Shown: one piece after another, positions 1,741 to 64,000 of the stretch
How the letters are laid out: each line of letters opens with the position of its first letter
How positions within the stretch are numbered: position 1 is the stretch's first letter
Virus record (IMG/VR): IMGVR_UViG_3300043465_001479
Span: 45,967 to 109,966 of that record
Direction: 5' to 3' (one strand)
DNA length: 64,000 nucleotides
Source: a virus
Notes under the pieces: generated by a model
What the model saw: the letters and a program-made list of their open reading frames with translations, nothing else
Database searches by the model: none
Told to the model about the DNA's origin: nothing
Program-made: the position numbers and the translations under genes

Positions 1741-1955
1741 CCGTCCTTCGCCCAGCCCTTGCCCTTCAGGACGAACGACGTTGACGTCGAGAGCACCTGC
1801 TCGTAGCGACCTTCACACTGTCGGCCCCCGATGGGCTCTCGGTTCTCGTCGAGCACGATGTAGAAGCCCATGCACTGCTTCGGAGGGGACTCCTTCGGAG
1901 AGAAAACTTCGATGCGCGTCTTGCACCCGGTGCATTCATAGTCGTGGATCGGCAC
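1734..1955 (-). CDS. FmdB-like zinc-ribbon protein
   Basis: 73 aa beginning with GTG 1955 (AAGGAG just upstream). The start MPIHDYECTGCKTRIE and the end SFVLKGKGWAKDGY are hallmarks of the FmdB/CxxC putative regulatory family. The second cysteine pair is spread out (C at 'QCMGF' and 'RQCEG') with an insertion naming no known domain. Function of the family is unclear. It follows the dNMP kinase by 3 bp in the same transcript. Confidence 0.75.
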   Translation of the reverse strand: MPIHDYECTGCKTRIEVFSPKESPPKQCMGFYIVLDENREPIGGRQCEGRYEQVLSTSTSFVLKGKGWAKDGY

Positions 1956-1958
1956 AGG

Positions 1959-2516
1959 TCACTCCTTCGAGGAAACGTCCATAGCCCACAGCAGCACATC
2001 CACCTGATTGTGGAGGTCCGCGATGGAGCCGTTGTTCACGAGTTCACGGTCCACGACGTAGTCGTCCATGCTCGTCTCAGAGGCGTGCAGGTCTGTGCGC
2101 TCCCCGAGGGCAGGTCGGACGACGCGCCAGATCTCGCCACCCAAGGCTTTGACGACATCCGCCTCGTTGGGGAAGCGGACGTCGGTGATGACGAAGGAGA
2201 ACGGCCCGCCCGGTCCCGTCTGGAAGCTCTCAAGCCTGCGCTGGAGTGACTTCACCCAGATGTTCTGGTCAAGTTGACGACCTATCTCGGTCCCGAAGGT
2301 CTGGAGCACAGCCCGGGGCGTGGTCTGCCAGTACGGGTCGACGACCTCCTTCAAACTACCATCGAGGTGCTCGTGGCCCCAGCCGTAGATGTAGCGCACA
2401 GCCTCCTTGAGAGGCTTGGCGAAGCTCTCTTGCGCGAAGTCGTGCTTCATCCGCAGGTACGCGCCGACGGTGTCTTTGCCGCTGCGCTTCCGCCCCGTCA
2501 TTCCGATCAGCCGCAT
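1959..2516 (-). CDS. Deoxynucleoside monophosphate kinase
   Basis: The P-loop GRKRSGKDT lies at residues 8-16, followed by the family-typical segments FAKPLKEA, PRAVLQTFGTEIGR and VITDVRFPNEA with a late R/VxRP. This matches phage T4 gp1-like and related dNMP kinases, which phosphorylate dNMPs to feed phage DNA synthesis. 185 aa is a usual length. Its stop is 3 bp before the FmdB-like gene and its start overlaps the upstream ORF. Confidence 0.88.
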   Translation of the reverse strand: MRLIGMTGRKRSGKDTVGAYLRMKHDFAQESFAKPLKEAVRYIYGWGHEHLDGSLKEVVDPYWQTTPRAVLQTFGTEIGRQLDQNIWVKSLQRRLESFQTGPGGPFSFVITDVRFPNEADVVKALGGEIWRVVRPALGERTDLHASETSMDDYVVDRELVNNGSIADLHNQVDVLLWAMDVSSKE

Positions 2517-3703: not shown

Positions 3704-3793
3704 CTCCGTTGCTGAGAACCCCTCAGTGTTCAGGGGCTGCAGGGGGCCTCCTCATGTAGGGCCGATCGCCGAAGCGGAGAAGCAGAAAACTAA

Positions 3794-5205: not shown

Positions 5206-5646
5206 CTACCGAAGCTGGATCTTTATGTCTGAGTCCACCGGATCAACGTCAGGACTGAACGCGCGGAGCTGAAGCCACTGCGTGTATCGCTGGTCGTCAG
5301 ACATCTGGGGATACGGAAACATTATTGCCGACGGGGCCCATGCTTTTGCCACAGGGAGCCAGAAGGACGTCGCCGGTGAGTGTTCAGTGCTGTTGGCCTC
5401 TACCTTCGTTCCCGCAGCAGCCCGAGCCCCTACCCGGGCGATGCCGAGCGCCGTCAGACCGGGCCAATCGAAGTGGTTGGAAAACTTGGCCCCTTCCTTC
5501 CGGCGACCCCAGAAGGCTTGGGCGATCGGCTTGTTCCGGTCGTCATCTTTGAAGTTCAGCCAGCAGAGACGGCACTCCTCGGCAGGACGCCAGAGCGGGC
5601 CCTTGCAGGACGCACAAAGGGGGCGGGTGGTGATCGGCACAACCAT
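5206..5646 (-). CDS. Zinc-ribbon hypothetical protein
   Basis: 146 aa. N-terminal CASCKGPLWRPAEECRLC (residues about 11-28) has two CxxC pairs of a zinc ribbon; the rest is unrecognised. ATG 5646 overlaps the upstream stop (TGATG); a TTG one codon earlier is less likely. One of several Cys-pair proteins in this region. Confidence 0.65.
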   Translation of the reverse strand: MVVPITTRPLCASCKGPLWRPAEECRLCWLNFKDDDRNKPIAQAFWGRRKEGAKFSNHFDWPGLTALGIARVGARAAAGTKVEANSTEHSPATSFWLPVAKAWAPSAIMFPYPQMSDDQRYTQWLQLRAFSPDVDPVDSDIKIQLR

Positions 5647-5906: not shown

Positions 5907-6835
5907 GACTCCCCCTCCGCCTTCTCCGCACGGGCCTTCAACTCGGCACACTCGCGCAGCACGCGGGTGAAGTCGTCGCCGAGAGCACGGGCAGCGGCGT
6001 CGGACGTCTCTGCGCGGGCAATGGCGGCGTCACGCTGGGCGTGCATCTGGGCACAAGCCGCCTCCGACTGGCGCCACAGAATCCGAGCGGCTGCGGCGTC
6101 GTCGACGTACATCTCGACCATGCCTGCGGACTTGTCGAGTTCCTGCCCGTAGTTGTCTCGCTCGTTTGTCCGCTCCCTCGCCAGCGCCTCCGCTGCGTCT
6201 CGCTGGATGGTGAGGGAGGCGATGGCGGCGTCACGCTCGTCAAGGGCCGCGTTCAACTGGCGCGACGTCTCGGACCTGATCTCTTCGAGTCCCTGAAAGT
6301 CGGCTGCGCTCCTCCACCTCCCCCGCTCGGCGATGACGTCGGGGCGGGAGAGGATGGCGCGGGCGTTGTCGGCGGCATCAAGGAGAAACGGCGGCGCCGT
6401 CTCGCCGACGTCGCTACACCCATGACGGACCGCGTCGATCAGATCGGCCAACGCCTCCCCCATCGCCGCCACGGTGCGGCTGAGGTCGTCGGTGCGGGTC
6501 TCAATGGCGACGAGCCGCCATGCCTCGGCGACTGCAGCGTCGCGTTCCGCCTTGAGCCCACCACTCGGAAGGAGGGGGCTGTCGGGAAAACTCCACCTCC
6601 GAGCGGTGGTAGGTCGTCCCATGTCTCTATCGGGGTCGACGTTCTCCACCAGAGACGAATCAGGGAACGCGCGCGGGCTTTGGAGGCGAGCGGCTTCCTG
6701 ATCTGCCTCTGACAATGTCTCGAAGATGGCGTCGGCCTCCTCAAGGAGGACGCGGTCCTCTTCGGGCCTCCATCCCGGTCTTGCCCGTTGCTCCCTGAGC
6801 TTGTCCAAGAGGCGGCTGTAGTCGGTCATGGTCAT
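5903..6835 (-). CDS. Long coiled-coil protein
   Basis: 310 aa. ATG 6835 is chosen for the AAGGAG 7 nt upstream; an upstream in-frame ATG would run into the small ORF before it. The C-terminal half (about residues 180-310) is an Ala/Arg/Glu-rich coiled coil (RDAAIARAETSDAAARAL..., ELKARAEKAEGES). Possibly a scaffolding or filamentous accessory protein; not recognised. Confidence 0.7.
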   Translation of the reverse strand: MTMTDYSRLLDKLREQRARPGWRPEEDRVLLEEADAIFETLSEADQEAARLQSPRAFPDSSLVENVDPDRDMGRPTTARRWSFPDSPLLPSGGLKAERDAAVAEAWRLVAIETRTDDLSRTVAAMGEALADLIDAVRHGCSDVGETAPPFLLDAADNARAILSRPDVIAERGRWRSAADFQGLEEIRSETSRQLNAALDERDAAIASLTIQRDAAEALARERTNERDNYGQELDKSAGMVEMYVDDAAAARILWRQSEAACAQMHAQRDAAIARAETSDAAARALGDDFTRVLRECAELKARAEKAEGES

Positions 6836-7185: not shown

Positions 7186-7640
7186 GCTCCCTCCGTAACA
7201 GGGTCCGTATGGTCCTCTTCGTTCCAGACCAGCTCCCCTGCGGCATTGGTTCCGATCCCCGCTCCTCGCCAAGCATCGAGCCCGGTCGGGAAGACGCGGA
7301 TCAGCATACCGAAGTTCGGGGTCCGCACGAGCACGAGCGGCTCCCAATGGGAAGTCGCCCGGGTCTCCAGCACGGAGTTGCAGTGGTCCAGAAAACTCGG
7401 GTCTTCCCGAAGGTGGTCGAGGGCCATCCAGTGCTCCACCGCGTTGATGCTCTCGCCCTCCGCGTCGTACCCTCGATCTTCGTCGTCGGACCACCGGACT
7501 TGCTGGGAGGTCATACCGACCAAGTCGCAGATGGTGCAGCGAGGATCGCTGAACTCGGCGGTCACGTTGTGCGGTCTGTTGAGCGACAGCACGCCTCGCT
7601 CAGGCATCCTGCAGACAGGGCAAAGGGTCCGATTGCTCAT
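7182..7640 (-). CDS. Hypothetical protein with zinc-ribbon N-terminus
   Basis: 152 aa. CPVC near residue 7 and CTIC near residue 35 form a probable zinc ribbon. The rest (VEHWMALDHLREDPSFLDHC..., WEPLVLVRTPNFGMLIRVF) is not recognised. Coupled downstream by ATGA. Confidence 0.65.
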   Translation of the reverse strand: MSNRTLCPVCRMPERGVLSLNRPHNVTAEFSDPRCTICDLVGMTSQQVRWSDDEDRGYDAEGESINAVEHWMALDHLREDPSFLDHCNSVLETRATSHWEPLVLVRTPNFGMLIRVFPTGLDAWRGAGIGTNAAGELVWNEEDHTDPVTEGA

Positions 7641-7653: not shown

Positions 7654-7929
7654 TCAAGGCGTCGTCTTCTTCACGACGATGGCGACGTCCGGTGCATTGT
7701 TCAGTTCGATGTGGTCGATCGCTCTCGACACGATCCACTTGCTGGACCTCACCCCACAGAGGAAGGCGCTGCTCAAAGCCGGGAGCATGGCCCTCGCAGT
7801 GGGCTCGTCGACATCCTTCAAAGGGGTGCCGACCTCCTCACCGTTCTTCCGCCGGATGACCACCCGGAAGGAGGGGTTGTTGAGAAAACTTGACTGCGGG
7901 TCCGGTTCGACATGGATCTTGTGCTTCAC
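7654..7929 (-). CDS. Hypothetical protein
   Basis: 91 aa from GTG 7929 with GAGG 8 nt upstream. Alternating strand/helix pattern (FRVVIRRKNGEEVGTPL) without known motif. The AGTTTTC heptamer sits in the codons for SSFL. Confidence 0.55.
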   Translation of the reverse strand: MKHKIHVEPDPQSSFLNNPSFRVVIRRKNGEEVGTPLKDVDEPTARAMLPALSSAFLCGVRSSKWIVSRAIDHIELNNAPDVAIVVKKTTP

Positions 7930-8869: not shown

Positions 8870-9242
8870 GGGTCGCTCCGGGGGGTTCGTGTTCTCACGG
8901 AAGTAACTCACCCCACGGATTTCTTTTTTCTGAAAACCGCTTTGTCAACTCCACTGGAAAACTGGCCTCGGTGATCAGAGGGGGCAAAGGGGGGTCTGGT
9001 TTCCCGAAAAATCCTCGAAGCGGAGAAGAAAAAAAGTTTCGGCAAACTAGGGGCCCTCTTCCGTTCCCATGGTCCGCCGGGCGTCCACCCCCCTCCCGGG
9101 GTCCGGGTCGGAAAATTAGACCGGGAGGGGGAAGTGGGGAGGCAGACAAACGGTGGGGAACTTTCCCTACGGGGTTCTGAAGAGTCTTTCTTCGGGTGAT
9201 GACAAATCATGCGCTTCGACAGATTAGATCCATTTGAACAAG
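8870..9242. other. 373-bp gene-free region with G-rich tracts and promoter elements
   Basis: No convincing ORF. It holds TTGACA on the minus strand (8941-8946), an AGTTTTCC heptamer just upstream of it, G-runs (for example AGGGGGCAAAGGGGGG at about 8976 and GGGAGGGGGAAGTGGGG at about 9123), a CCCGGGG-type palindromic cluster near 9090-9110, and a GATCC-ATTTGAAC half operator at about 9226. CGAAGCGGAGAAG (about 9014) also occurs in the other gap at about 3772. Likely control region, possibly with a structured RNA. Confidence 0.45.
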
Positions 9243-9829: not shown

Positions 9830-10082
9830 GTCAGGGATGTAACAGGCTGGCGACCTATCAGGTGGAGGTTGACTGCCGACTAGGGGAAAGCACTGAACAG
9901 AAAACTAGCACCCGGGGTTTCTCGGGAGGTTTTGAGAGGTTTCTAGTGGGTTTTCAGAGAGGTTTTCTTCAAGGACCACATGGTCCGTCTAATCCACGTT
10001 CACTTGAACGTAGTTGTTGACTTCTACGCGCATGGTGTTACCGTGGGATCACGGCATGGTTGCCGCCACCAAGGAGCGCCAG
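9830..10082. promoter_or_regulatory. Divergent control region
   Basis: Contains the minus TGTTAC (9839-9844), GAAAACT (9900-9906), a run of GAGGTTTT/GGTTTC repeats (about 9915-9965), the palindrome GGACCACATGGTCC (9973-9986), the inverted repeat ACGTTCA-CT-TGAACGT (about 9998-10013) and a plus-strand TTGACT at about 10018 with TGTTAC at 10034. It serves the minus gene at 9829 and the plus pair at 10083. Confidence 0.55.
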
Positions 10083-10945: not shown

Positions 10946-11378
10946 GACCCGGGCAGTAACAGAGCTTCAGAAAACTGGTCCTCAAACGAAAAAAGCACCG
11001 GATTGCTCCAGTGCCTTCTTCCCGTTCTCTTCTGCCTGTCGCGAAACAGGCTTCATCGGACGAGCGCGTCGTTCCGCGCGGTCCCGACCTTCCGCTGTCA
11101 CCGCTCAGGCTTTCACCTGCGAGGCGCGGTCTCTGTCCTTGGCCCGGGTGAGGGGTTCAGGTCGGAGGCCGTTGTGGGGCTTGGTCGGAGCCCTGTGTCC
11201 CGGTCAGCGATTCGGCTGGCTTTCGGTGAGGACCAATCAGGCTTGCGCCGTCTCGAACCATGCCGTCGTCCAGTCCCAGCAGCGACCCTCTTGCGAGGAA
11301 AACTACCGGGCGACGAGTGCTTTCTCTCATGGGTCCAAGAGAGCGTCAACACTTTTTTTCAGATGGGCCCGTGCTCCT
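10946..11378. other. 433-bp intergenic region with minus-strand terminator
   Basis: Apart from the promoter of the gene at 10945 and the terminator below, I see no gene I can support: open frames on both strands here have unnatural Arg/Ser/Pro-rich composition. It contains a GAAAACT heptamer at 11298 and TTGACG at about 11343-11348 (minus). Confidence 0.4.
10985..11012 (-). terminator. Rho-independent terminator
   Basis: Minus strand: GCACTGGA-GCAA-TCCGGTGC hairpin followed directly by TTTTTTC. It would stop transcription of the genes at 11379-11914 before the promoter of the gene at 10945. Confidence 0.75.
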
Positions 11379-11914: not shown

Positions 11915-11971
11915 TTGAGGCTCCGTTGGGCATCCATGCCCGTTGGGTCTCGGCTCGGTTGCCGTGATCTG

Positions 11972-12000: not shown

Positions 12001-12010
12001 CACAAGAGCA

Positions 12011-12038: not shown

Positions 12039-12146
12039 CGGGCACGAGGATCTCGGCGGGGCCGCGTGGGCTGTCGGAAAACTGTGTCGGGCCCTCCAAC
12101 GGAGCACGAGGCTCCGGGGTGAGGGAGGTTCGGAGGCAGGACTCGC

Positions 12147-12752: not shown

Positions 12753-12787
12753 GCGATCCTCCGGGGCGGCATCCGTGCCGTGATCAC

Positions 12788-12845: not shown

Positions 12846-12956
12846 GGATCTGGCCGGATCTGACCGTCCGGCAGGCGACTCGCCCAAGCGGCTTCCGGGC
12901 CGGTTTCGGAAAACTGGTCCCGGGCCCCCGGGCGAACCATATGGTCCTCGCCCCCA

Positions 12957-14957: not shown

Positions 14958-15347
14958 TCAGAGGCTGGCCTCTTTCACGAAGAGGGCGACGCGGGTGAGC
15001 CCCTTGTCCGTCATCCCCAGTTTTGCTGCCGACCCTTGCGATAGGTCGATGACTCGGTCTCCGGCGTAGGGCCCCCGGTCGTTGATGACCACCTCGACCG
15101 ACCGACCGCTGTCGAGGTCGTGTACCACCACGATGGTACCGAACGGCAGCGTCCGGTGGGCAGCCGTGGCTCCGGCGGCACGGAAAACTGCTCCAGAGGC
15201 CGTCAGCCGCCCGTCGAAGCCCGGCCCGTACCAAGAGGCAACCCCGGTGGAGAACGGGACTGGGTCCGATGAGGCGACCGGGTCCATATGGTCCGAGGCG
15301 AGAGGCGCCGCGAAAAGCAGCGCGAGCGAGGCAACGGTTTTTCGCAT
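14958..15347 (-). CDS. RlpA-like double-psi beta-barrel protein, exported
   Basis: 129 aa with a short signal peptide (MRKTVASLALLFAAPLAS). The DPBB domain is unmistakable: GVASWYGPGFDGRLTASG, TAAHRTLPFGTIVVV, VVINDRGPYAGDRVIDLSQG, AAKLGM. RlpA proteins are septal lytic transglycosylases cleaving naked peptidoglycan glycans. The His of TAAH is kept, but the Asp normally 8 residues before it (in YDM/FDM) is Arg here, so enzymatic activity is doubtful. No SPOR domain. It could help lysis or envelope remodelling. Confidence 0.88.
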   Translation of the reverse strand: MRKTVASLALLFAAPLASDHMDPVASSDPVPFSTGVASWYGPGFDGRLTASGAVFRAAGATAAHRTLPFGTIVVVHDLDSGRSVEVVINDRGPYAGDRVIDLSQGSAAKLGMTDKGLTRVALFVKEASL

Positions 15348-17643: not shown

Positions 17644-18105
17644 TCACCGAGAGCGGAAGCGCAACAGGGTCAGCGACGTCGGATCATCCACGAAGGGATC
17701 GACCTTCGCTCGCCGAACCATCTTGAGCTTCCCGGGGCCTTCGACATTGGCCTGCAGCAGCGAGAGAATCTCAGCCTCGGCTTGTCGCTCGACGCCTGCC
17801 CACTCTTCAGCGGATGCCTTGCCGTCGTAGGTCACGACGAGAGGCACGACGTAGTCCACGGCATCCTTGCGGCGATGCACCAAGGGGCGCTTCGTCTTGG
17901 CGATGGACAGGGTGGCACCGCGAGGAGTCGAGAAGCCTCGGCCTCGCAGCGAGCGCAGCGCGGTCGAAGCTCTGGCGGCGAACGCCTGCTCCGGCGACCC
18001 GTCGTCAGCCTTGCTGAAAACTGGCTCCGCCGGGGCCCCCTCAGCCTCTTCGGCCATGGGAACTCCGAACAGATCGGCGACGTCGGAGAGGGGACCGCGC
18101 ATCAT
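17644..18105 (-). CDS. Hypothetical protein
   Basis: 153 aa, coupled (ATGA) to the upstream gene. The C-terminal half (VDYVVPLVVTYDGKASAEEW...LKMVRRAKVDPF) is strand-rich. Last gene of the run 24.5-17.6 kb. Not recognised. Confidence 0.6.
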   Translation of the reverse strand: MMRGPLSDVADLFGVPMAEEAEGAPAEPVFSKADDGSPEQAFAARASTALRSLRGRGFSTPRGATLSIAKTKRPLVHRRKDAVDYVVPLVVTYDGKASAEEWAGVERQAEAEILSLLQANVEGPGKLKMVRRAKVDPFVDDPTSLTLLRFRSR

Positions 18106-19911: not shown

Positions 19912-20532
19912 TTACGCTGAGTCGGGGTCGGAAGTCAGCGACGCAGAAGTGAGAATCTGAGGGGGAGCCTGCAGTCCCCAAGTTGTCCATCCCGGCTCTT
20001 GTGTACGAGCGAACAACTCTACTCGGGGTCTGTCGCCGAGCAGCTCCAAGATCCGCCGGTGAACCTCCGGTGGCTTCGCCGAGTGCTTCTCTCCGGGGCG
20101 CGACGCAAGAAGCACCTGCCCCATCGCCTCCGTGAGCAGCGGCAGAGGTCGGCCCGTCTTGCAGGTGGTTCCTGCCAGCACGAATTCCGTCGTCGGCTTC
20201 ACCAGCGTTGGGCGCACGCCTTGGCCGTTGATGATTTTTCCGGCCTTGTTGGTTTTGATCCAAACGAACGCCACCCCCCTGAAATGGAAATTCCAAGCCT
20301 CCATGACCTTGATTGCCTCGGGAAGCTTTGGCCCGGTCGCCCAGAGGAAGAGGACCGCGTTCTTGGCGCAGAATGACCGAACGGGGAGGGCGCAGATCTC
20401 CTCCGTTGGCATCAGCGTGTAGTGCTTGCCCGCCGCTTGAGGCTTCAAAGGGTCGCCGAAGTAGGCCCACGGGGGGTCAGCGACGACGATCTCGTAGTCC
20501 CGGCGGGGGAGCTGCAACGGAAAACTGGTCAT
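19912..20532 (-). CDS. MT-A70-family adenine N6-methyltransferase
   Basis: 206 aa. DPPW at residues 19-22 and the sequence around it (YEIVVADPPWAYFG), FLWATGPKLPEAI, VWIKTNK and ASRPGEKHSAKP are the standard MT-A70 signature. In phages these proteins methylate adenine in DNA, often to evade host restriction. ATG overlaps the stop of the second methyltransferase, so both are co-translated. AGTTTTC occupies codons 3-5. Confidence 0.9.
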   Translation of the reverse strand: MTSFPLQLPRRDYEIVVADPPWAYFGDPLKPQAAGKHYTLMPTEEICALPVRSFCAKNAVLFLWATGPKLPEAIKVMEAWNFHFRGVAFVWIKTNKAGKIINGQGVRPTLVKPTTEFVLAGTTCKTGRPLPLLTEAMGQVLLASRPGEKHSAKPPEVHRRILELLGDRPRVELFARTQEPGWTTWGLQAPPQILTSASLTSDPDSA

Positions 20533-35356: not shown

Positions 35357-35377
35357 GTCTGCTTGCTAACAGTTTTC

Positions 35378-42804: not shown

Positions 42805-43284
42805 GACAGGCTCCGAGGTTGAGTTTTCTTTGGCCTTGGACTTTCGCTTTTTCTTCTCGGGCTTGTCGGGGACCGCAGACTCAGCGGGCTCCTTCAAGCC
42901 CGTTGTCAGGCCGAAGTGATACAGACGCCCCCACAGGTGCCATCCGCTGGAGAAGCCCGCCTTCTCGGCGGCAGCCGCATAGGAACCGCCTGTGCGAAGA
43001 ACTCCAAGCGCCACGTTCACTCGGAGCATCGCGTTCTCGTAGCGCTCTTTGTGCAGACACTCGCGAGAGCAAAACTGCGCTCGCAAGGTCTGACAGATCT
43101 TCCCGCACGTGAGACATGCCGAGCGGTCAGCGGCCCCGCGTCCTCGTCCTCGTGTTGGAACTCCCGCAACAGCCAGTGTCTTGCGGACCCACTCGTGTGA
43201 ACGATTGAGCGCCCCTGCGACTTCGCGGAGATCCTTCCCGAGACCGTACAGCGTGACCGCCTGTTCTTGGATCGGAGTGAGCAT
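42799..43284 (-). CDS. DNA-binding regulator with two HTH units and a zinc ribbon
   Basis: 161 aa. N-terminal HTH (EQAVTLYGLGKDLREVAGAL, then NRSHEWVRKTLAVAGV), a CLTCGKICQTLRAQFCSREC zinc finger, a second HTH-like unit (GVLRTGGSYAAAAEKAGFSS) and a Lys-rich tail (KPEKKKRKSKAKEN). This is the clearest regulator in the window and sits beside a palindromic divergent promoter at 43296-43320. Candidate reader of one of the repeated operator classes; inference. Confidence 0.75.
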   Translation of the reverse strand: MLTPIQEQAVTLYGLGKDLREVAGALNRSHEWVRKTLAVAGVPTRGRGRGAADRSACLTCGKICQTLRAQFCSRECLHKERYENAMLRVNVALGVLRTGGSYAAAAEKAGFSSGWHLWGRLYHFGLTTGLKEPAESAVPDKPEKKKRKSKAKENSTSEPVT

Positions 43285-45230: not shown

Positions 45231-45592
45231 GGACGTCTTCCGCAGCACAAGCAGATGACCCCAGTGACGCTGGTCGTCCAAGGGCCCGAACAGCGGAGGC
45301 ATCGGCGCGGGCGGACTGCTGGGGGCGTAGGATGGGCAAGTGACCAGAAGACCGGCCCAGCGGCAGTTCGCTCCCTCACGATAAGGCCCTGCAGGTCCAT
45401 CCACGAGAGGCTGTTGCTCAGAACAGCAAGGGAAAACTCGGGAACATGCGTCCGCAACTCTCGCACCGTCATCGGGCGCTTGAGGACTGAGGTGATGCGC
45501 TCCGCCCACACCGGCCAGCGCGGGTCGTCTGACGAGGGAATGTGTTCCTCCGCCAATCGGAATGGGTGCGCTTTTTTCCGTTCCTTGACCAT
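45227..45592 (-). CDS. Winged-helix protein with zinc ribbon
   Basis: 121 aa. MTVRELRTHVPEFSLAVLSN...LQGLIVRERTAAGPVFWSL is a wHTH, and CLRCSG...CLCCGRRP at the end is a zinc ribbon. An inverted repeat TGTAGAA-N4-TTCTACA starts inside its ATG, suggesting autoregulation. Probable DNA-binding regulator. Confidence 0.6.
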   Translation of the reverse strand: MVKERKKAHPFRLAEEHIPSSDDPRWPVWAERITSVLKRPMTVRELRTHVPEFSLAVLSNSLSWMDLQGLIVRERTAAGPVFWSLAHPTPPAVRPRRCLRCSGPWTTSVTGVICLCCGRRP

Positions 45593-47034: not shown

Positions 47035-47064
47035 GGCGGGGTCGTAACACGCTTCTTGGAAAAC

Positions 47065-47325
47065 TCAGCCGAGAGCGAGCCGAACGAGCCGAGCCTTATT
47101 GAAAGCGGCCTCTGCCTCCTCCAGTGCGTCAGCGACCTTCTCCCAGTTCGGCTTCTCGGCGTCGGAGGCGCTCGTCATGCGCTCCCGAGCATCGTTTCCG
47201 AGTTGCTGCACATCACGTGAGATGGAGAGCATCTTCTGACAAACCGCCTTCGCGTCTTGGGAATCTCTCATCTCAGCCAGCGCCTTCATGGCCTCCAGCT
47301 TCTCGTAGTATTCAGGAGTACGCAT
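47065..47325 (-). CDS. Small coiled-coil protein
   Basis: 86 aa, ATG 47325 with GAGG upstream, helical (KALAEMRDSQDAKAVCQKML, ALEEAEAAFNKARL). Its first codons are part of the 49-bp direct repeat. Unknown; probably virion- or packaging-associated from context. Confidence 0.6.
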   Translation of the reverse strand: MRTPEYYEKLEAMKALAEMRDSQDAKAVCQKMLSISRDVQQLGNDARERMTSASDAEKPNWEKVADALEEAEAAFNKARLVRLALG

Positions 47326-50165: not shown

Positions 50166-50570
50166 TCAATCGCCCGCCTGCTCCACAAACGGGGCGATGG
50201 TTTCGGCATCTGCAATCCCGATGATCTCGTCCGCTGCAATCCAGCCCACGAGGCTCTTGTCCTTCAGCTTGTAGGTCCAGCCGAAAGGCAGGCGGAAGAA
50301 CAGGATGCGGTCCCCTTCTTTCAAAGGCGTCTTCGCGAGGGGCCCGACCGAGAGCACCGTGCCTGTGACAAGCACCTGCGAGCCGAGCCGCTGCCCGTAG
50401 GCGAAAGCGTGGTCAGGCGGGAGGTAGATGCCGCTCGCAGTCCGGTCAGGAAGCACGTCGGTACGCAGGAAAACTCGGGTGCCGATGGCGACGACACGGT
50501 GGCCCACCTCGTCCCAAGTCGCTTTGATGAATTCGGCAGTCGAGGTCGGGGCAGGCATCGTCTCAGTCAT
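50166..50570 (-). CDS. GroES-like co-chaperonin
   Basis: 134 aa from ATG 50570 (GAGGAGA upstream). RVFLRTDVLPDRTASGIYLP, GSQVLVTGTVLSVGPLA, LKEGDRILFFRLPFG, VGWIAADEIIGIAD match Cpn10 in order. Instead of the ordinary mobile loop it has 'PDHAFAYGQRLGS' , so length here is near standard. Phage co-chaperonins (T4 gp31 type) adapt host GroEL to fold large capsid proteins. It sits among virion-type genes. Confidence 0.82.
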   Translation of the reverse strand: MTETMPAPTSTAEFIKATWDEVGHRVVAIGTRVFLRTDVLPDRTASGIYLPPDHAFAYGQRLGSQVLVTGTVLSVGPLAKTPLKEGDRILFFRLPFGWTYKLKDKSLVGWIAADEIIGIADAETIAPFVEQAGD

Positions 50571-52083: not shown

Positions 52084-52347
52084 TCAGTGGGACGGAAGGG
52101 TCGTAACCCAGATGCGAAGCTTGTTCGGGATCTCTTTGGGCTTCAAGTCGTGGATCGGGAAAGCGTCTTTGCCTGACCAACCGTGTCTGTTCACATGAAC
52201 GAGTCCGCCGGACACTGAGAAAACTACACCGACCAAGGTGGGGTTGGCCCGGTCGACCACCTTGTCCCCGGGTCGGGGGACGTCGTCCGAGAGGAACACG
52301 CGGGCCGGGGGAACTGCCGATGTTCGACGTCGGCAGTTGCAGCCCAT
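52084..52347 (-). CDS. Small beta-rich protein
   Basis: 87 aa. MGCNCRRR start and an SH3/KOW-like core (PRPGDKVVDRANPTLVGVVF, then SVSGGLVHVNRHG). AGTTTTC sits in the codons for VVFSV. Unknown, possibly nucleic-acid binding. Confidence 0.55.
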   Translation of the reverse strand: MGCNCRRRTSAVPPARVFLSDDVPRPGDKVVDRANPTLVGVVFSVSGGLVHVNRHGWSGKDAFPIHDLKPKEIPNKLRIWVTTLPSH

Positions 52348-54890: not shown

Positions 54891-55229
54891 TCAGCGCTCC
54901 TCCTGCGTTTTGAGCATCTGGTTCGCCGTCATGGCTTGGGGGCGGAGGCTGGGGGATGATCCTCCAGTTTTCTTCTTGTGGGGCAGGACGGTGTACTTCC
55001 ACCGCGCGGCCAGCCCCAAAATGTTGAAGTCCTCTGGCGTCAGCTCACCACCGGGAATCCCAGTCTCCGCAAAAGCGGAACGGATGGCGGTGTCCGGCGA
55101 GACGTCAGGGTTTTCCTCGAAGAACGCTTCGGTCGCCATCCAGACCTGTCGGGCCGACTTCGTGCGCCACGGCCAGCTGGGGCCGGAGGGCCCGCCGAGG
55201 TCGCGCAGCATTTCAGGAAGAGTGCTCAT
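54891..55229 (-). CDS. Hypothetical helical protein
   Basis: 112 aa, ATG 55229 coupled to the tube-protein gene. MSTLPEMLRDLGGPSG...QVWMATEAFFEENPDVSPD. In contractile systems small helical proteins next to the tube protein are often assembly factors; inference from position only. Confidence 0.55.
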   Translation of the reverse strand: MSTLPEMLRDLGGPSGPSWPWRTKSARQVWMATEAFFEENPDVSPDTAIRSAFAETGIPGGELTPEDFNILGLAARWKYTVLPHKKKTGGSSPSLRPQAMTANQMLKTQEER

Positions 55230-56008
55230 CTTGCGGTTGGTGGCTTTCTGAAGAAACTTCTGTAGCCGAAGAAGACCGTGTTCGCGATCGTTTTCCCGCC
55301 CAGAGTCGCCTCCTTCATCGAGTCCGTTCGGCTCGGGAAAGACACGACTTGGTCGAACTGAGGGATCTGCGCGAACGCGAGGCTGACGCTCGCCAAACGA
55401 GGGTTTCCTGACGGGAAAAACTTCTCCCAAGTGATGTCGCACGAGGTCATTACACACAGGATCGAGTCTGCGTCCTGAGATGTAAAGTTGTTCTCGCCGC
55501 CAGCCAGACCGATGCCACTCTTGGGGAGCAGCAGCTTCAGCTTCGCTGGCGGGATGGTCCTCTGCTTCACGGAGTCGTACTTGGGCAGCATGTACTGCCT
55601 CAACCACGCGACAGCGGAGCGAACGTCGACGTTGCGCTCCCCTTGCCCTGAGCTTTTCAGGCGCTCCTTGGCCGCGTTCGCAGCGATCGTATTCGTGGAA
55701 ACATTGCTTTCCGAATCTGTCGTCAAGAGCAGCGCGAGGTCGATGTCTGCCGAAAACTGAGCGGTGAACGAGATGGTTCGCTCACCGGACGCAACCCACT
55801 GGTAGACGGGGAGACTCCCACCGGGAATCTCCTTGCTCTGCCAGTTGACCGCTTTGTTGTCGGAGATGGTCTCAGGGAAGTACTGGAACGCCTGCGCCGT
55901 GTCCGGTTGGTCGGTGTCTGGCATCAACGAGATGAGTGTGGCCATGCTGCGCTTCTCAGAGAGCAGCCCGGGCCCGAGGGCCGTCGCAAGTCCGACCAGT
56001 CCGGCCAC
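55226..56008 (-). CDS. Contractile-injection-system tube/baseplate hub-type protein
   Basis: 260 aa from GTG 56008 (GAGG upstream). FPETISDNKAVNWQSKEIPG, then GSLPVYQWVASGERTISFTA and QFSADIDLALL, matches the start of CIS tube proteins found at the junction of tail tube and hub, where tail length and lysozyme attach. This supports a contractile tail. AGTTTTC lies in the codons for QFSAD. Confidence 0.7.
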   Translation of the reverse strand: MAGLVGLATALGPGLLSEKRSMATLISLMPDTDQPDTAQAFQYFPETISDNKAVNWQSKEIPGGSLPVYQWVASGERTISFTAQFSADIDLALLLTTDSESNVSTNTIAANAAKERLKSSGQGERNVDVRSAVAWLRQYMLPKYDSVKQRTIPPAKLKLLLPKSGIGLAGGENNFTSQDADSILCVMTSCDITWEKFFPSGNPRLASVSLAFAQIPQFDQVVSFPSRTDSMKEATLGGKTIANTVFFGYRSFFRKPPTAR

Positions 56009-57212: not shown

Positions 57213-57569
57213 CTATGGGAGATATTTTGGTTCTACCACCCCAGCATCCCACGAAACAGAGTCAAAACGAAAAGCGCCGACCACTCGACGCTCGAAGCTG
57301 GAGTCTCGCACCAGCACCCCTCGGATGTCCCCACTCATGTCTGGGTTCCGCAGCAAGACGTTCGAGACGACGCCGGATGGCTGAAGAACGAGAACTGCGT
57401 AGGTGTTGGGGGCAGCGGCTTTGCGCAGGTTGGCCTTGGCGAGCAAGGCGCCAGACGGGGCCAGCAGCGCACACAGCGCAGGCCACGTGAGCGAGAGAGG
57501 CTCAGCGTCCTTCTTCGGGACCAACCAACCATCTCGAATTTTGCAAGGCGTGAGCAGAAAACTGGCCAC
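57213..57569 (-). CDS. Hypothetical structural protein
   Basis: 118 aa from GTG 57569, chosen for GAGGAGGACC directly upstream; an in-frame GTG at 57635 is less likely. It begins MASFLLTPCKIRDGWLV and is beta-rich. AGTTTTC occupies codons 3-5, exactly as in the MT-A70 gene. Confidence 0.6.
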   Translation of the reverse strand: MASFLLTPCKIRDGWLVPKKDAEPLSLTWPALCALLAPSGALLAKANLRKAAAPNTYAVLVLQPSGVVSNVLLRNPDMSGDIRGVLVRDSSFERRVVGAFRFDSVSWDAGVVEPKYLP

Positions 57570-58064: not shown

Positions 58065-58469
58065 TCAGTCCCCGGCGGTTGCGATCACGATGTCCACGTC
58101 CACCGCCGCCGGGTCCGTGTTGATGATCTGCAAGCTCGTCAGCGACTTCGCCGACATCAGGAACGTCGACTCGGCAGCGGATCCCACCGGAGCCACGTCC
58201 AGCGCGGTTCCGCCGTTCAGGGCGACCCCCACAGACGTCAGGGTCAGGGTCGGGTCGGACGGGATGATGCGGAGCATCAAGAACACCGCCGCCGCGATGG
58301 AGTCCAGGGGCAGGGTGACGGTGGCCCCCGCCAGCACCCGAGTTTTCCAGACGCCGCCCTCGTTGGGCTCGTCCGACGTGACCGAGAGGCACACGTTCCC
58401 CAGGTCTTTCGAGTCGGCAGGGCTCGACGAGATGGAGACGGTGATGTTGTAGCGAAGACGAATGGACAT
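58065..58469 (-). CDS. Small beta-rich virion protein
   Basis: 134 aa, TAGGAG upstream of ATG 58469. Strand-rich (RLRYNITVSISSSPADSKDL, TLTLTSVGVALNGGTALDV) and Val/Ile-rich to the end. Likely baseplate or tail subunit beside two giant tail genes. Confidence 0.6.
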   Translation of the reverse strand: MSIRLRYNITVSISSSPADSKDLGNVCLSVTSDEPNEGGVWKTRVLAGATVTLPLDSIAAAVFLMLRIIPSDPTLTLTSVGVALNGGTALDVAPVGSAAESTFLMSAKSLTSLQIINTDPAAVDVDIVIATAGD

Positions 58470-58517: not shown

Positions 58518-61283
58518 TCAGGCAACGTCGCCAAACACGACTACATTGAGGTCGATCTGGGGAGAGCCAGCGGCCATGGTGAAATCAGTATTCTGAAAAA
58601 TTTTCGAGCCTGACGACCAGTCGTCAATCACGATATCAAAGAACAAGGTCGTCCGCTGGGTAACTCGACCGATGCATGGAGCATTATTCGAGCTTCCTGC
58701 CGATATGATGACGATGTAGTCGTCGTTCGCCATCGGGTAAATGAATGTGTAGCGAAGACCAATACCGCCGCCAACGACTGCGGGATCGTTTGTCGCGAAG
58801 TTGTGGACACGCAGCGAATGCGCGCTGATATATGCCGTGTTTATAGGCTTGACTACCAATCCCCATGCAACGGCGACGCCCTGTTGCAGCACACTCGTCC
58901 CTGCAGAGGACACGGTCTGCTTTGCGACAGGAACGGCGCTCGGTACACGAGGCTGGTTCGCAAACGTCCACGGCTTGCTTGCGAGGACCGCCGCACTGCT
59001 GACATCTATGGCGTTCCCGGCGACAGCGACGATGACGTTCGACACTGCTTGCAGAAGGAGGTCGTCGGTGCCCGGGGTCGGAGGTGCGCCGCCTGCGAAG
59101 ATGCTGACTCCGCCTGCGTTCAAAAAGGTTCCAATCAGGACGTCCCCTGCTGCTGGAACAGGTACGGCTCCGCCAACGAAGATCGACATGCCTCCGAGGA
59201 AAGTCCCCACGGCTATGTCTCCACCGATGGAGAAGACGGCGATCTGGCCGCTCGTGCTTCCGATAGTAACAGTGCCAGAGTTCGACGAGAAACCTGCGGT
59301 TCCCGTTCCCGTGGCTCGCACAAGCATGGTGCCCGCACTGTCAGCCTGAATGATGACGTTCCCTGCAGTCGGGGCAGGGGGCGTGCCTGTTGCCACGACA
59401 ATGCCCCCCGACGCCGACCGGAGCAGCGCGTCTCCTGTGGAGGCAGCGATATCGATGTCGATGGCTTCGACGACCGCTGCAGGCAGTATAGCGGACCCGA
59501 TGTTGACGGTGGTGAGGGCTGAGATCAAGAGCGCGTTCATCGGCGCGTTTGGTGGCTGCCCACCGGCGAAGATGCTGACCCCGCCCACGCCGAGTTCGCT
59601 GCCGATCATCATGTCCCCTGTGAACACAGGCGGCAAAGCGGTGCCCGACCAAACAAGCGCTCCAGTAGCGCCGATCAGAGATGCACTGTTGCTGAAGGAC
59701 TGAATCGTGATCGGTCCGGTGTCGGTGATCACCTCGACGTACCCTGTCGTCGCCGCTTCAATAGTGACGTCACCCGACGACGTCTGCATGTAGAGCGGGG
59801 AGACGCCTGCATTGAGGGAGATTCTTCCTCCGGTCTGATACAATCCGCCGTCGATGCTCACCTTGGCGCTGAAAGGATTGAGCACCGTGTTGACGAGAAG
59901 GGTGTCGACGACGCGGACGTTCTTCGTGGCACGGCCCAGCGTCACCTCGGTGGCGTTCACGGGACCAATTGCGATGGGCCCTGAGTTCACAGGGGCAGGG
60001 GCGTCGAGGCTGCTCGCGAAGACGATGCCGATGTTCGTTGACCCGAGGACCGTCAAGTCCTGCTCGACGATCTCGTTTCCCTCCACGCGGAAGGTGTGGC
60101 CTGCTCCCGGCACCGAAGAGGAGAGCACCGTCTCCCCTGAGCCGTAGGTCAGATCCGCGTACTCAGCGCCGGGGAACGCGTCCTCGTAGAGCCGGACCTT
60201 CGTGTGGTGGGACTCGCCGGAAATCTCAGGGATGGCGTCCGTGGCTGGGCCGTGCTGCTCCAGTTGCAGGTCGACGTCCGCGATGTCGAAGATCGGCGCG
60301 TTGACCCCGACCGTCGTGTACGACACCGCCGAACACTGGACGAAGACCTCCTTGACGACGGCTGCGGTGGTGGTGACGGCAGGGAGCTGGACGATCGTGG
60401 AGTAGGTCTCCCACACACCGACAACCGCCGAGTCCAGCTGCAGAGTCACGGTTGTGATCGTCACCCCAGCAGCATCCGTGATGGTCGCCGACAAGACGGG
60501 GTTCCCCACGCTCGGAACGACGGTGGGTCGGAACGCGACGGTCAGGCGCAGGCGCCGGTTGGTGGGGATCGGGAGGCCAATCTTCTGACTCAGGATGCCG
60601 CTGACGTTTCCAAGGCCAGCCGCGTTCTTTCGAGCCCGGAAGGACAGGTTGAACCCAGACGGAGCCAGCACCGCGTTCGAGGCGATGTAGGTCATCGCGG
60701 TGAGGGAGGCGGAGTCCCAGAAGTCAGGGAGGCCGACAAGGTCGTGCGTGAGGTACGGGGCGCCGTTGCGGACCACGGACACCATAGGAGTCGCGTCGCG
60801 TCCCCGAGCCAAGAACGGAAAACTGCGGTCGTCGAGGCTGATGTTCGCCGCCGGAATGAGGCCCGCCGCCGGAACCACCACCTTCGCCAACACACACGAC
60901 GTTGCGGGAATGGCCTCGGTCCCGAGATCGTAGACGTTGATCGTCCCCGTCGTGTCGGCAGGGAAGGCGTAGGAAAGGTCGATGCAGACCGCGACGGTCT
61001 TGGAGGCGTAGGCGCTCAGATCCAGGTCAACGACTCCCGTGAGGTGGACGCTGACGCTGGTGGTCGTGTTGAGGTCACTGACAGAGACAGCCGAGCTTCG
61101 GCCTGAGGGGTCCGTCGCAAGATCGATGTGCAGCGGGGTGCCGGACACCTGAGGGTTGAAGCCCTCGTAGACGCCTGCGGGCACGATCCCCCGGAACTGC
61201 TGGTTCAGGGACTCCGAAATGTACGGCGCGCGGAAGCGAACCGTGATTTCCTGATTGGTGAAGACGTACCCAGAAGTTGGCAT
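58518..61283 (-). CDS. Large fibre/baseplate protein
   Basis: 921 aa. N-terminus MPTSGYVFTNQEITVRFRAP and GIVPAGVYEGFNPQVSGTP recall phage baseplate-attached structural proteins. Residues about 500-850 carry repeats such as GGVSIFAGGAPPTP and GDVLIGTFLNAGGVSIFAGG, a likely beta-helix shaft. The end (IGRVTQRTTLFFDIVIDDWS) suggests a tip. Probably a spike or fibre. Confidence 0.75.
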   Translation of the reverse strand: MPTSGYVFTNQEITVRFRAPYISESLNQQFRGIVPAGVYEGFNPQVSGTPLHIDLATDPSGRSSAVSVSDLNTTTSVSVHLTGVVDLDLSAYASKTVAVCIDLSYAFPADTTGTINVYDLGTEAIPATSCVLAKVVVPAAGLIPAANISLDDRSFPFLARGRDATPMVSVVRNGAPYLTHDLVGLPDFWDSASLTAMTYIASNAVLAPSGFNLSFRARKNAAGLGNVSGILSQKIGLPIPTNRRLRLTVAFRPTVVPSVGNPVLSATITDAAGVTITTVTLQLDSAVVGVWETYSTIVQLPAVTTTAAVVKEVFVQCSAVSYTTVGVNAPIFDIADVDLQLEQHGPATDAIPEISGESHHTKVRLYEDAFPGAEYADLTYGSGETVLSSSVPGAGHTFRVEGNEIVEQDLTVLGSTNIGIVFASSLDAPAPVNSGPIAIGPVNATEVTLGRATKNVRVVDTLLVNTVLNPFSAKVSIDGGLYQTGGRISLNAGVSPLYMQTSSGDVTIEAATTGYVEVITDTGPITIQSFSNSASLIGATGALVWSGTALPPVFTGDMMIGSELGVGGVSIFAGGQPPNAPMNALLISALTTVNIGSAILPAAVVEAIDIDIAASTGDALLRSASGGIVVATGTPPAPTAGNVIIQADSAGTMLVRATGTGTAGFSSNSGTVTIGSTSGQIAVFSIGGDIAVGTFLGGMSIFVGGAVPVPAAGDVLIGTFLNAGGVSIFAGGAPPTPGTDDLLLQAVSNVIVAVAGNAIDVSSAAVLASKPWTFANQPRVPSAVPVAKQTVSSAGTSVLQQGVAVAWGLVVKPINTAYISAHSLRVHNFATNDPAVVGGGIGLRYTFIYPMANDDYIVIISAGSSNNAPCIGRVTQRTTLFFDIVIDDWSSGSKIFQNTDFTMAAGSPQIDLNVVVFGDVA

Positions 61284-61319
61284 GGCGTACTCGTACCTTG
61301 GGAGACCAAGGAGGGAAAG

Positions 61320-64000
61320 TCACGGGAGGAGGACGTAGATGGGTTCGGCGTTGACAGGCAGGGTGTCGTCGATGAGGCGCTGCACGCGCTCGAAGGCTTG
61401 GTCGTTCGCCAAAGCTCCTTCCGAGATCAGCTTGGCAGTCTTGGTCAGCTCGATGAGCACGCGGTAGGTCGCGCAGATGTTGCAGTCGAGAATGATGTTG
61501 CAGATGTAGGTGAACGCGACCGGCCCCACGACTGGAGGAACGGTGGACTGCGTCGTGACTGTGTAGACGGCGTTCGGGTAGGTCGTCGCAATCTGCGGGA
61601 CTGCGTCCAAATCGACATAGGGGACCAGCACAGGCGCCCCGAGGGAGACGAGTGTGGGTGGAGCGTCGAGGAAACGGATGTTCCCCGCGCTGTCAGTGAA
61701 CTGCCAATCCCCTCCGGTGTAGACCGAGATGTCGTCACCCGTGATGGTCAAAGTGTGAGTGTTGAGCACTGAGGAGATGGCCGTGATGGTTGAGCCGCTT
61801 GCCGAGGATGAAAGTGCGTCTGGGTCCACCAAAGTCGATCCGACGATGATGGGTTCAACGTCACACATGACGTCGATGCCGGGTCGGTTGAAAGCTGTAC
61901 GACCTTGGATGTCGGCCATGACCGCGACATAATCGAGGTCGACGTCGTCCATCCGAGGGAAGGTCGGAACGACAGTCGTGAAGAGCTGTCCGATGGACGA
62001 GGTCAGCAGCCCGTTGTTGGGCTCGACGTAGTTCCAGTTCTCGATCGGCCCAAGATTGGCCCCTATGGACGGCTGGAGGAGGCGGACCACCGTGGGCGAG
62101 ATGATCGATCCGATGACCCAGAAATTGTTGTTCACTGGAGCGACAGAGGCAGAGTTCCCTGTGTTGAGCACGCGCCCGACGTCCGAGGCGACGAAGCTCT
62201 GGGTGGGGTCGCTGAATTCGGCGAAGCCAGCGTTGTTCGTGATGGTGCCCGTGAGCCGACTGCGACCCGGGTCAGCGATGTAGATGTAGTTGAATCCTGC
62301 CGATGTTGATGTCCCCGGAGCTGCGACCACCGTGAAGAGAGGCAGCACGTTGGCACTGAAGCCGGACAGGTGAGCGACGTCGATGACTGATTGGGCGGTG
62401 CCTTTCACCGCAATCCACTGCGAGACCTGCCTCACCCAAGCACGCTGACGGTCGTCGACCTGTTGAGTGTCCACCTCGACGCCGAAGTCCCGCGCAAAGA
62501 TATCGAGCAGCGCCTGTGCGTGAGCCTGCACCTCGCAGTCGAGTGGGTTCAAACGAGTTGGATCGGGACGGATGATGGGGGCGGAGCGGATCTCCCAGTA
62601 GCAGACCGACGGGTCCGCCCGGAGGAAGGCTTTCACAAAGGCCCGGTCACCGGCAGAGTTCACCCCCATGATCTCGTAGCAGCCGTCGTTGCCGAGGACA
62701 GAACCGTGGATCGACAGGAGCTTCCCGATGTCCGTGGGCTCGAACGACGCAGACGGGGAGAAAACTCGGGTGGTCGTCGGCGTCGGATGCAGCGGGTCAG
62801 GGCCCGAGTTCGGCAAGACTTCGAGGTCGAAGTTCTCATTGCTGACCACCCCGAGAGGCAGTCCACCCCTCAGCGTGATGCGAGCGAACGGACGGACGGC
62901 CCAGAAGAACGGCCCCGCCGTCTCTGGGAGGCGAAGTCCTTTGATGGGGGCCCGGTCGAACGCTGCGACAGTAGTCTCCACGCCGGGAGTGACGGTGCGG
63001 TACACCTCGACGTACTTCGTGATGGTCGGGTTCAGCCCGATCGCCGTGACGATGTCAGAGGGGATCGTCGTGATGTTCGATCCTGCATCCGTCGCCAGCC
63101 GCACCGTGATGTCGAAGCGCTCTTGGGAGATGGCGTCCGACTGGAACGAGACGACGAGTGGGAGGTTCGGAAGCGCCTCGTAGGAGTGCAGGATGGTGAC
63201 TGGTCGGTCGGCGGTGGTGCGATAGGCGTAGGTGATCTTCCCGAAGGGGTCTTTGAGCGTTCCGGGCACGACAAGGCGTCCGACAACCGCTCGCCCCGCC
63301 TCCACGTCCCCAATCTCCGTGAGAACCGACGCTCCGTCCGACAGGGGCCCGAGGAAGATCAGCTTCCCGATGTCTGTCTGCGTGAACGTGTAGGAGGGTG
63401 AACCGACGGTACCTGCCGCGTCGACCTCCCCGTCCTTGAACTCGCGTTCGTTGAGCTGCTGGTTGTTGAGGACGGACTGGTAGTACATCTGGCGCGTCAG
63501 CACAGTGAACTGCTTCGCACCGTCGAACACCTGCCAGCCAATCTCCACGAGACGAGGGTCACCTCCCCGAAGCTCAACCTCGACTTCATCGACGGGGATC
63601 TCAACCGCTGGGCGCAGCTCCCATCGCATCGGGCCAGCGTCCACAGCGATCAGAGGGTCGGTGAAGACCTCCTTCTCGTTGATGAATCCCGAGATGGTGA
63701 ATGTCTGCTGGTTGTTCGTCTGAACTGACGACCGGCGGATGATGATCTGTTTTCCGATATCCGCTGGGGAGAACCGAGTGGTCCGGTCCTGCGCCGTGAA
63801 GGTGCCGGACGAATACACCCGGGCCTGCGCGCCTGTTTGCTCGATCGCCCCTGTGGGGATGATCTGCTTCCCGAGCGTCAGGAAGTCAAACTCTGACCAT
63901 GCAGTCCGAACAAGGAAAGGGTCGCGGAGGTCACCGTACTGGCGGATGTGCTCGCGAAGGTTGTCGAAGGACGGGAACAGGCCCTCTTGCAGGCGCTCCA
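61320..64000 (-). CDS. Large baseplate/tail protein (runs off window end)
   Basis: The frame remains open to base 64000, so at least 893 residues; a GTG at 63818 is internal. It repeats a module with F(S/T)PxDIGKxIxI (ADIGKQIIIRRS, TDIGKLIFLG, TDIGKLLSIHG, SDVGRVLNTG). The part QVDDRQRAWVRQVSQWIAVK, then GTAQSVIDVAHLSGF, resembles the tail-protein-I region of baseplate wedges. The end is a VLIELTKTAKLISEGALAND helix. Confidence 0.78.
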   Translation of the reverse strand, partial: ERLQEGLFPSFDNLREHIRQYGDLRDPFLVRTAWSEFDFLTLGKQIIPTGAIEQTGAQARVYSSGTFTAQDRTTRFSPADIGKQIIIRRSSVQTNNQQTFTISGFINEKEVFTDPLIAVDAGPMRWELRPAVEIPVDEVEVELRGGDPRLVEIGWQVFDGAKQFTVLTRQMYYQSVLNNQQLNEREFKDGEVDAAGTVGSPSYTFTQTDIGKLIFLGPLSDGASVLTEIGDVEAGRAVVGRLVVPGTLKDPFGKITYAYRTTADRPVTILHSYEALPNLPLVVSFQSDAISQERFDITVRLATDAGSNITTIPSDIVTAIGLNPTITKYVEVYRTVTPGVETTVAAFDRAPIKGLRLPETAGPFFWAVRPFARITLRGGLPLGVVSNENFDLEVLPNSGPDPLHPTPTTTRVFSPSASFEPTDIGKLLSIHGSVLGNDGCYEIMGVNSAGDRAFVKAFLRADPSVCYWEIRSAPIIRPDPTRLNPLDCEVQAHAQALLDIFARDFGVEVDTQQVDDRQRAWVRQVSQWIAVKGTAQSVIDVAHLSGFSANVLPLFTVVAAPGTSTSAGFNYIYIADPGRSRLTGTITNNAGFAEFSDPTQSFVASDVGRVLNTGNSASVAPVNNNFWVIGSIISPTVVRLLQPSIGANLGPIENWNYVEPNNGLLTSSIGQLFTTVVPTFPRMDDVDLDYVAVMADIQGRTAFNRPGIDVMCDVEPIIVGSTLVDPDALSSSASGSTITAISSVLNTHTLTITGDDISVYTGGDWQFTDSAGNIRFLDAPPTLVSLGAPVLVPYVDLDAVPQIATTYPNAVYTVTTQSTVPPVVGPVAFTYICNIILDCNICATYRVLIELTKTAKLISEGALANDQAFERVQRLIDDTLPVNAEPIYVLLP

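Follow-up and report, generated by a model that had tools for sequence, protein, structure and literature searches.

The subject of this analysis is the seven-letter word GAAAACT in a stretch of 64,000 bases, hereafter the window, which covers positions 45,967-109,966 of the 109,966-bp virus record IMGVR_UViG_3300043465_001479 (G000) and has a GC content of 61.8%. A DNA comparison of its first 25 kb with 50,697 phage records gave no match. Genes were called by an in-house script, not by a standard gene finder, and cover 86% of G000; they include those for a RecA/UvsX-type recombinase, a DnaB-type helicase, an IstB-like loader, a DnaG-type primase, RuvC, ThyX and an N6/N4 DNA methyltransferase. 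The related record G017 carries a major capsid protein matching the T4-like gp23, a portal and a tail sheath, as well as a DNA polymerase with polymerase I matches. Since every capsid match to named phages is less than 60% identical (35-38% for the best of those listed), the G000 group is taken, from these comparisons, as a T4-like myovirus group without close named relative. We counted GAAAACT in G000 and in 93 other virus records, and show that it is a DNA-level signal word, maintained by selection at its seven bases, in the G000 phage and in many members of its family.

A first-pass annotation, made from the letters of the window, had counted 30 copies on the plus strand and 7 on the minus strand, which is exactly what we found. 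It had placed the first copy at 1912, and this position was wrong: the first lies at 1902, and the last at 62760-62766. The copies are the following, in window positions.

1902..1908, plus strand, GAAAACT
3785..3791, plus strand, GAAAACT, outside called coding sequences
5480..5486, plus strand, GAAAACT, outside called coding sequences
6586..6592, plus strand, GAAAACT
7391..7397, plus strand, GAAAACT
7884..7890, plus strand, GAAAACT
8957..8963, plus strand, GAAAACT, outside called coding sequences
9900..9906, plus strand, GAAAACT, outside called coding sequences
10970..10976, plus strand, GAAAACT, outside called coding sequences
11298..11304, plus strand, GAAAACT, outside called coding sequences
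12077..12083, plus strand, GAAAACT, outside called coding sequences
12909..12915, plus strand, GAAAACT, outside called coding sequences
15183..15189, plus strand, GAAAACT
18016..18022, plus strand, GAAAACT
20520..20526, plus strand, GAAAACT
22709..22715, plus strand, GAAAACT
23360..23366, plus strand, GAAAACT
25432..25438, plus strand, GAAAACT
26524..26530, plus strand, GAAAACT
29211..29217, plus strand, GAAAACT, ends a run of 23 plus-strand copies that starts upstream at record 42045 (window -3921)
32620..32626, minus strand, GAAAACT
33345..33351, minus strand, GAAAACT
35371..35377, minus strand, GAAAACT, outside called coding sequences
39184..39190, minus strand, GAAAACT
40109..40115, plus strand, GAAAACT
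41918..41924, plus strand, GAAAACT
42822..42828, minus strand, GAAAACT
45432..45438, plus strand, GAAAACT, outside called coding sequences
47059..47065, plus strand, GAAAACT, outside called coding sequences
50469..50475, plus strand, GAAAACT
52219..52225, plus strand, GAAAACT
54966..54972, minus strand, GAAAACT
55752..55758, plus strand, GAAAACT
57557..57563, plus strand, GAAAACT
58341..58347, minus strand, GAAAACT
60818..60824, plus strand, GAAAACT
62760..62766, plus strand, GAAAACT, altered in both aligned relatives (G017, G019)

The cluster of minus-strand copies pointed out in the first-pass annotation is real, five of the seven lying within 32.6-42.8 kb. The extra G before the word (17 of 37 copies) and the CTGG after it (8 of 37) are only weak preferences in the G000 clade. 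The copy at 20520 stands just past the 3' end of the gene for the N6/N4 DNA methyltransferase (486 amino acids, window 20529-21989, minus strand).

Over the whole of G000 we found 60 copies (41 plus, 19 minus), that is about one per 1,800 letters or 0.55 per kb, against 9/4 for the word written in reversed order. An order-2 Markov model expects 5.4 copies on both strands of the 110 kb, and under this model GAAAACT is the most over-represented 7-mer of the record. A maximal-order model does not single it out, because its shorter parts, such as AAAACT, already carry the excess. We also used a codon shuffle, which keeps each protein and its codon use, in a per-gene and a pooled scheme with 500 shuffles each for the whole record. 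The coding sequences of G000 hold 39 copies (15 sense, 24 antisense) against about 9 in the per-gene and 6 in the pooled scheme, the most extreme shuffles giving 18 and 13. Within the window, 26 coding copies (20 plus, 6 minus) compare with 4.5 expected (2.7 and 1.8); none of 1,000 shuffles gave more than 11, so that the 20 copies named in the first-pass annotation as the level that chance should not attain were never reached. As had been stated, the copies fall in every frame (2/9/4 sense, 8/8/8 antisense in the coding sequences of G000), and they are thus not one protein motif. Called genes leave 14% of the record uncovered, and this part contains the remaining 21 of the 60 copies, at no fixed distance from gene starts. 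An origin in ribosome-binding sites (GGAG followed by the reverse complement, AGTTTTC) was rejected as main cause, since only 4 of these 21 copies have the nearest gene start within 25 bp downstream.

The word is also sharply conserved between close relatives. G000 and G017 are 87% identical over 45.6 kb, where 20 of the 22 aligned copies are intact. For aligned 7-mers in general the intact share is 45%, and for those equally rich in A+T it is 42% (binomial p 9e-6 and 2e-6, respectively). When the 2,432 words that have 8 or more aligned copies there are ranked, GAAAACT comes first. The per-base identity of the 22 copies is 1.00 at bases 1-6 and 0.91 at base 7, so both altered copies differ in the last base only; in the flanks it ranges from 0.68 to 1.00. 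In the alignment with G019, 12 of 15 copies are intact (rank 12 of 1,090, binomial p 0.015). At the larger distance between G017 and G024 (73% identity), one of 12 positions is kept and both contigs are enriched. The word therefore occurs in relatives mostly at new, non-homologous places, as the first-pass annotation had proposed to check, and over longer times its density is kept while its places turn over.

To analyze spacing, G000 and G017, which overlap at both ends, were joined into a composite circular map of about 153.4 kb; this map combines two phages and is no single closed genome. Its 78 sites are placed more evenly than random ones (coefficient of variation, CV, 0.65 vs 0.98 +- 0.11, p 5e-5). 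With both orientations counted, the gaps extend from 225 to 6,117 bp with a mean of about 2 kb, which fits Okazaki-fragment spacing; random placement would give 8 gaps shorter than 225 bp, of which there are none here, and a longest gap of 9.7 kb instead of 6.1 kb. Combined over 14 contigs, the evenness has a p of 2e-4, and in G068 each strand is even separately (plus CV 0.75, minus CV 0.47). The earlier view that selection acts on the DNA and not on the protein is thus supported in three ways, by the codon shuffle, by the conserved seven bases and by the evenness of the spacing.

The composite map shows two orientation arcs, one with 39 plus and 10 minus copies and the other with 8 plus and 21 minus (permutation p 0.001), whose switch points are about half of the map apart; a run test of orientation on G000 alone gave p 0.026. 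The strand polarity described in the first-pass annotation thus exists as two large arcs and not as a simple one-strand rule, the relatives being mixed. Since the arcs are limited to this map, a one-strand replication bias was rejected as a family rule. Run tests place G068 and G055 in the upper tail of the permutations, their orientations alternating more often than expected, and the other tested relatives are not clearly non-random. It had also been suggested to compare orientation with GC skew and gene direction. For minus-strand genes, the difference in third-position GC skew peaks with the arcs at most 2 kb from their word-defined placement; 3 of 103 rotations reach the observed value, itself included, and the difference is small (0.135 vs 0.109). 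Gene direction was discarded as an explanation, copies being 15 sense and 24 antisense in G000 but 22 and 14 in G017. The comparison therefore gives a weak agreement for GC skew and no agreement for gene direction and T/A skew. No clear iteron array or A+T-rich dip was seen at the arc switch (record 31-39 kb).

Virus records that share the replication module are often enriched for the word (word/reversed word: G017 41/13, G019 27/3, G058 69/5, G055 29/1, G068 39/9, G066 16/0, G047 16/0). G000 and G017 do not count as independent, nor do G058 and G052, since the members of each pair overlap or are nearly identical. There is no enrichment in G035 (5/4), G064 (0/3), G070 (3/15), G074 (1/2) and G075 (1/0), nor in the more distant G002 (39/90; a 371-kb record reached via a structural protein), G081 (33/60) and G088 (30/60). 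The form of the word changes as well. In the G000 clade GAAAACT is mostly followed by G or C, in G066 and G068 it reads GAAAACTC(C), and G058 and its clade have the looser GMAADCTC, with 170 copies in the genes of G058 vs 39. The variant GAAAGCT reaches 16 vs 3.7 in G041 and 12 vs 4.8 in G074, and GCAAACT 5 vs 0.6 in G030. Judged from these records, the drift between clades resembles that of a site read by a protein. A different word, CTGGAGC, has 111 copies in the genes of G064 vs 40 by codon shuffle, over several frames.

The following genes of G000, outside the window, bear on what could read the word (record positions).

1455-2264, minus strand, ParB_N-domain protein (L001)
11410-12468, minus strand, DnaG-type primase (CHC2 zinc ribbon and TOPRIM), upstream of the window and adjoining the DnaB-type helicase
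12489-12884, small protein beside the primase
12894-14192, DnaB-type helicase

As judged by Pfam, PDB profile and fold, the product of 11410-12468 is a DnaG-type primase. Toprim_2, Toprim_4, Toprim and DNAG_N score above their Pfam cut-offs, and Zn_ribbon_DnaG matches with E 9e-4 and 19.5 bits, below its cut-off of 24.9. The residues C30, H39, C62 and C65 are invariant in 10 sequences. The best PDB match is the Aquifex primase 2au3 (profile E 3e-26, Foldseek E 4e-15), with a whole-chain template-modelling score of 0.45 and a predicted structure of mean confidence (pLDDT) 77; the domain arrangement is therefore uncertain.

We tentatively favor the reading in which GAAAACT is recognized by the phage's own DnaG-type primase as a start site for Okazaki fragments, the step from signal word to primase site being one that we infer. 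The lagging-strand template would be 5'-GAAAACT(C/G)-3'. The zinc domain would read the trinucleotide CT(C/G), like cellular DnaG at CTG or CTA, and the upstream GAAA tract, if it is indeed part of the site, would make it rare and strong. The primer would start with pppAG, as E. coli primers do. Okazaki fragments would begin at marked places about every 1-3 kb, and the two orientation arcs would be two replication arms, with an origin near record 35 kb and a terminus near 112-116 kb. Each primase would be expected to prefer the words of its own clade, GAAAACTC and GAAAACTG for that of G000, GCAAACTC and GAAAGCTC for that of G058. A wider proposal, possible but on the doubtful side, is that the genomes of this family of large T4-like phages carry a map of where Okazaki fragments start, made of evenly placed sites of 7-8 bases that are read by DnaG, co-evolve with it and are lost when a PrimPol replaces it.

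This last point comes from the gene table, which is based on the G000 and G017 genes matched in at least 4 relatives. The family shares one gene order in its replication module. In G035 a Prim-Pol/PriCT_2 primase replaces the DnaG-type primase between the same neighbors, and in G063 and G064 relatives of this PrimPol stand directly beside the family helicase, with no DnaG-type primase found. Every other contig with a match to the family helicase has a DnaG-type primase, and a second scan with a PrimPol alignment revealed no PrimPol phages beyond these three. None of the three is enriched for GAAAACT, GCAAACT or GAAAGCT; G063 has 2 GAAATCT vs 0.9. The bar for enrichment was at least 2-fold with a z score of at least 3, and the rule of taking the best of four variants was chosen after the word forms of each clade had been seen. 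Of the 20 DnaG-type contigs, 12 pass this bar with GAAAACT itself and 14 with at least one of the four variants, or 15 if GAAAGCT in G070 (1.99-fold) is counted. A fourth, more distant PrimPol record, G065 (17.5 kb), has no copy of either the word or its reversed form; no family helicase was found in these 17.5 kb, and the record was left out of these counts. The DnaB-type helicase of G035 (L155:16260-18680) is split by an intein with a LAGLIDADG domain.

Known primase sites offer partial parallels. According to a passage of PMC12839067, (G/T)2GTC is the sequence that the T7 primase requires; the lagging region has 177 of these sites, some 26 of which are proposed to be active, at intervals mostly of 1-6 kb on the lagging template, and T7 Okazaki fragments measure 1-6 kb. 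In T7 genes right of 6 kb we found 147 (G/T)2GTC on the lagging template vs 106.7 after codon shuffling (z 5.1), and 172 vs 154.4 on the other strand (z 2.2). GAAAACT is like the T7 site in its spacing and in its enrichment within coding sequences; unlike it, the word has 7-8 bases instead of five and is rare, where most T7 sites are thought to be unused. The T4 primase gp61 uses GTT or GCT and makes pentamers, as described in part of PMC10359460, and cellular DnaG uses pyrimidine-led trinucleotides such as CTG, CTA and CCC, which are strand-skewed in C. difficile (in the relevant part of PMC5204125). By Pfam, PDB profile and fold the phage primase belongs to the same protein family, and GAAAACT(C/G) also ends with a pyrimidine-led CT(C/G), but at 7-8 bases the word is longer than these trinucleotide sites.

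A number of observations weigh against a reading by the primase. Known primases read 3-5 bases and not 7-8, and the T7 yardstick is mixed because [GT]GGTC is enriched on both strands, more so on the wrong one (z 5.6) than on the template (z 3.2). In G000 the evenness belongs to both orientations jointly and not to one strand, its combined p rises to 0.023 once G000 and G017 are left out, and the word of the G058 clade is uneven (CV up to 1.33). The orientation arcs were not seen in relatives, including the G058 clade, and third-position T/A skew does not track them (rank 0.39). Concerning the association with primase type, the Fisher p of 0.03, calculated with 15 of the 20 contigs as enriched, takes no account of kinship and relies on whichever of the four variants scored best; in addition, the three PrimPol phages form one clade in the tree, so the association amounts to one evolutionary event. 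In G035, a PrimPol phage, pooled GMAADCTC is enriched 1.6-fold (z 3.3). The reversed control pattern comes to 2.3-fold in G055 (z 4.5) and to 2.0-fold in G078 (z 3.7), and a z of 3 is thus not a strict bar. Five DnaG-type contigs lack a clear enrichment, namely G067 (2.6-fold, z 2.6), G071 in its coding sequences, G075, G077 and G078. G070, from the same family, has instead another strong DNA-level word, GYCCGAGA, with 125 unevenly spaced copies. Finally, the primase is not alone in being absent from the PrimPol phages: the small protein at 12489-12884, a 128-amino-acid protein at 33200-33586 and ThyX at 21566-22387 are also unmatched in all three, as they are in several other contigs. Any of these could be the reader of the word, or the whole pattern could be chance.

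What else could read GAAAACT? The first-pass annotation had listed several candidate functions, among which a replication mark fits best, a Chi-like signal is possible, and asymmetric stoperators fit poorly. As a Chi-like word, GAAAACT would be recognized by a helicase-nuclease of host or phage, its copies stopping degradation and promoting recombination. The word is indeed short, asymmetric, over-represented and orientation-biased, and drifting words would track different hosts. A section of PMC3784561 reports that lambdoid phages without RecBCD inhibitor over-represent Chi even when they have a recombinase, as does the virulent T5; the RecA/UvsX-type recombinase encoded here thus speaks against a Chi-like role without being strictly defining. 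The word itself differs from Chi, and its density of 0.55 per kb exceeds the 0.2 per kb that the same section gives for Chi in recombinase-lacking phages and their host. A weak host hint came from a contig scan with 3 loci, one of them a major capsid protein match in a metagenome-assembled genome of Phycisphaerae. Of 119 genomes from the phylum so suggested, none matches both the phage density and the excess over the reversed word, and the Phycisphaerae genome itself, one of these 119, has 358 copies vs 327 reversed. Together with the lack of enrichment in the collinear PrimPol sister phages, this makes a Chi-like function rather improbable to us. Another phage protein that organizes, partitions or packages the genome by binding GAAAACT is a real rival, if also an unlikely one, because the even spacing of G000 ignores orientation, as would suit a protein spread along the DNA. 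The protein at 1455-2264, in which a ParB_N domain was detected, is one candidate. ParB sites are palindromic, however, and GAAAACT is not; moreover this protein is matched in 20 of 25 tabulated contigs and is retained equally by the PrimPol phages, which show no enrichment of the word. The small protein at 12489-12884 has a more suitable distribution, in 12 of 17 tabulated DnaG-type relatives and in none of the three PrimPol phages, but it was not found in the word-positive G046 and G068, nor in G067, G071 and G074.

The other explanations agree less well with the data. Site-specific single-strand nicks, as in T5, phiKMV-like phages and tf, also follow a short genome-wide consensus that changes between related phages. 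The available text of PMC3517423 describes them on one strand only, whereas GAAAACT occurs on both (41 plus, 19 minus) in G000 and in each relative examined, and none of the proteins searched was identified as a nickase; nick sites therefore seem quite improbable. We would place slightly lower still transcription-control sites like the stoperators of cluster A mycobacteriophages, which likewise have more than 20 asymmetric copies per genome and which the 21 copies outside called genes might recall. As outlined in part of PMC9283540, stoperators occupy promoters or short intergenic spaces and follow the direction of transcription. They fit poorly here because GAAAACT does not follow transcription, as its sense and antisense counts in G000 and G017 illustrate, and because 39 of its 60 copies are inside genes; no fixed distance from gene starts was seen either. 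The helix-turn-helix protein at 42799, proposed in the first-pass annotation as a regulator that might bind the word, scores just above the cut-off of Pfam HTH_58 and was not linked to GAAAACT by the analysis. A last explanation is an artefact, caused by composition, by codon use or by the repetition of a protein motif; some other words enriched 2- to 3-fold in these phages may reflect codon context. For GAAAACT this is hardly credible, being contradicted by the codon shuffle, the spread over frames, the excess outside genes, the sharp conservation and the even spacing.

Our searches of the open-access literature, for GAAAACT itself in phages and on primase sites, phage Chi and over-represented phage motifs, gave no title or abstract that describes the word. 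The word is a real and unusual DNA-level signal, for which we propose a role in replication as plausible. Should it be a priming site, these phages would make their lagging strand according to a written map and not opportunistically at trinucleotides, and the old question of how primases choose their sites would become directly testable by sequence comparison and primase swaps. Even with another reader, an evenly spaced and drifting genome-wide word would give a handle on a genome-scale process in uncultured phages.

Other repeated elements were seen in the same record. CCTGTTAC (reverse complement GTAACAGG) has 12 exact copies record-wide, 9 of them outside called genes (for example at window 7195, 9839 and 24489). 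Several point towards a called start codon that lies 17-20 nt downstream, and the element looks like a phage promoter element. A near-palindrome around CC(A/G)TATGGTCC also occurs record-wide (for example at window 11516, 12937, 15284, 38851 and 44882) and may be operator-like; TATGGTCC has 21 copies, 11 outside called genes, and is also enriched in G017 and G019. Lastly, a patatin-like phospholipase is phage-encoded (L003:103-897, minus strand).

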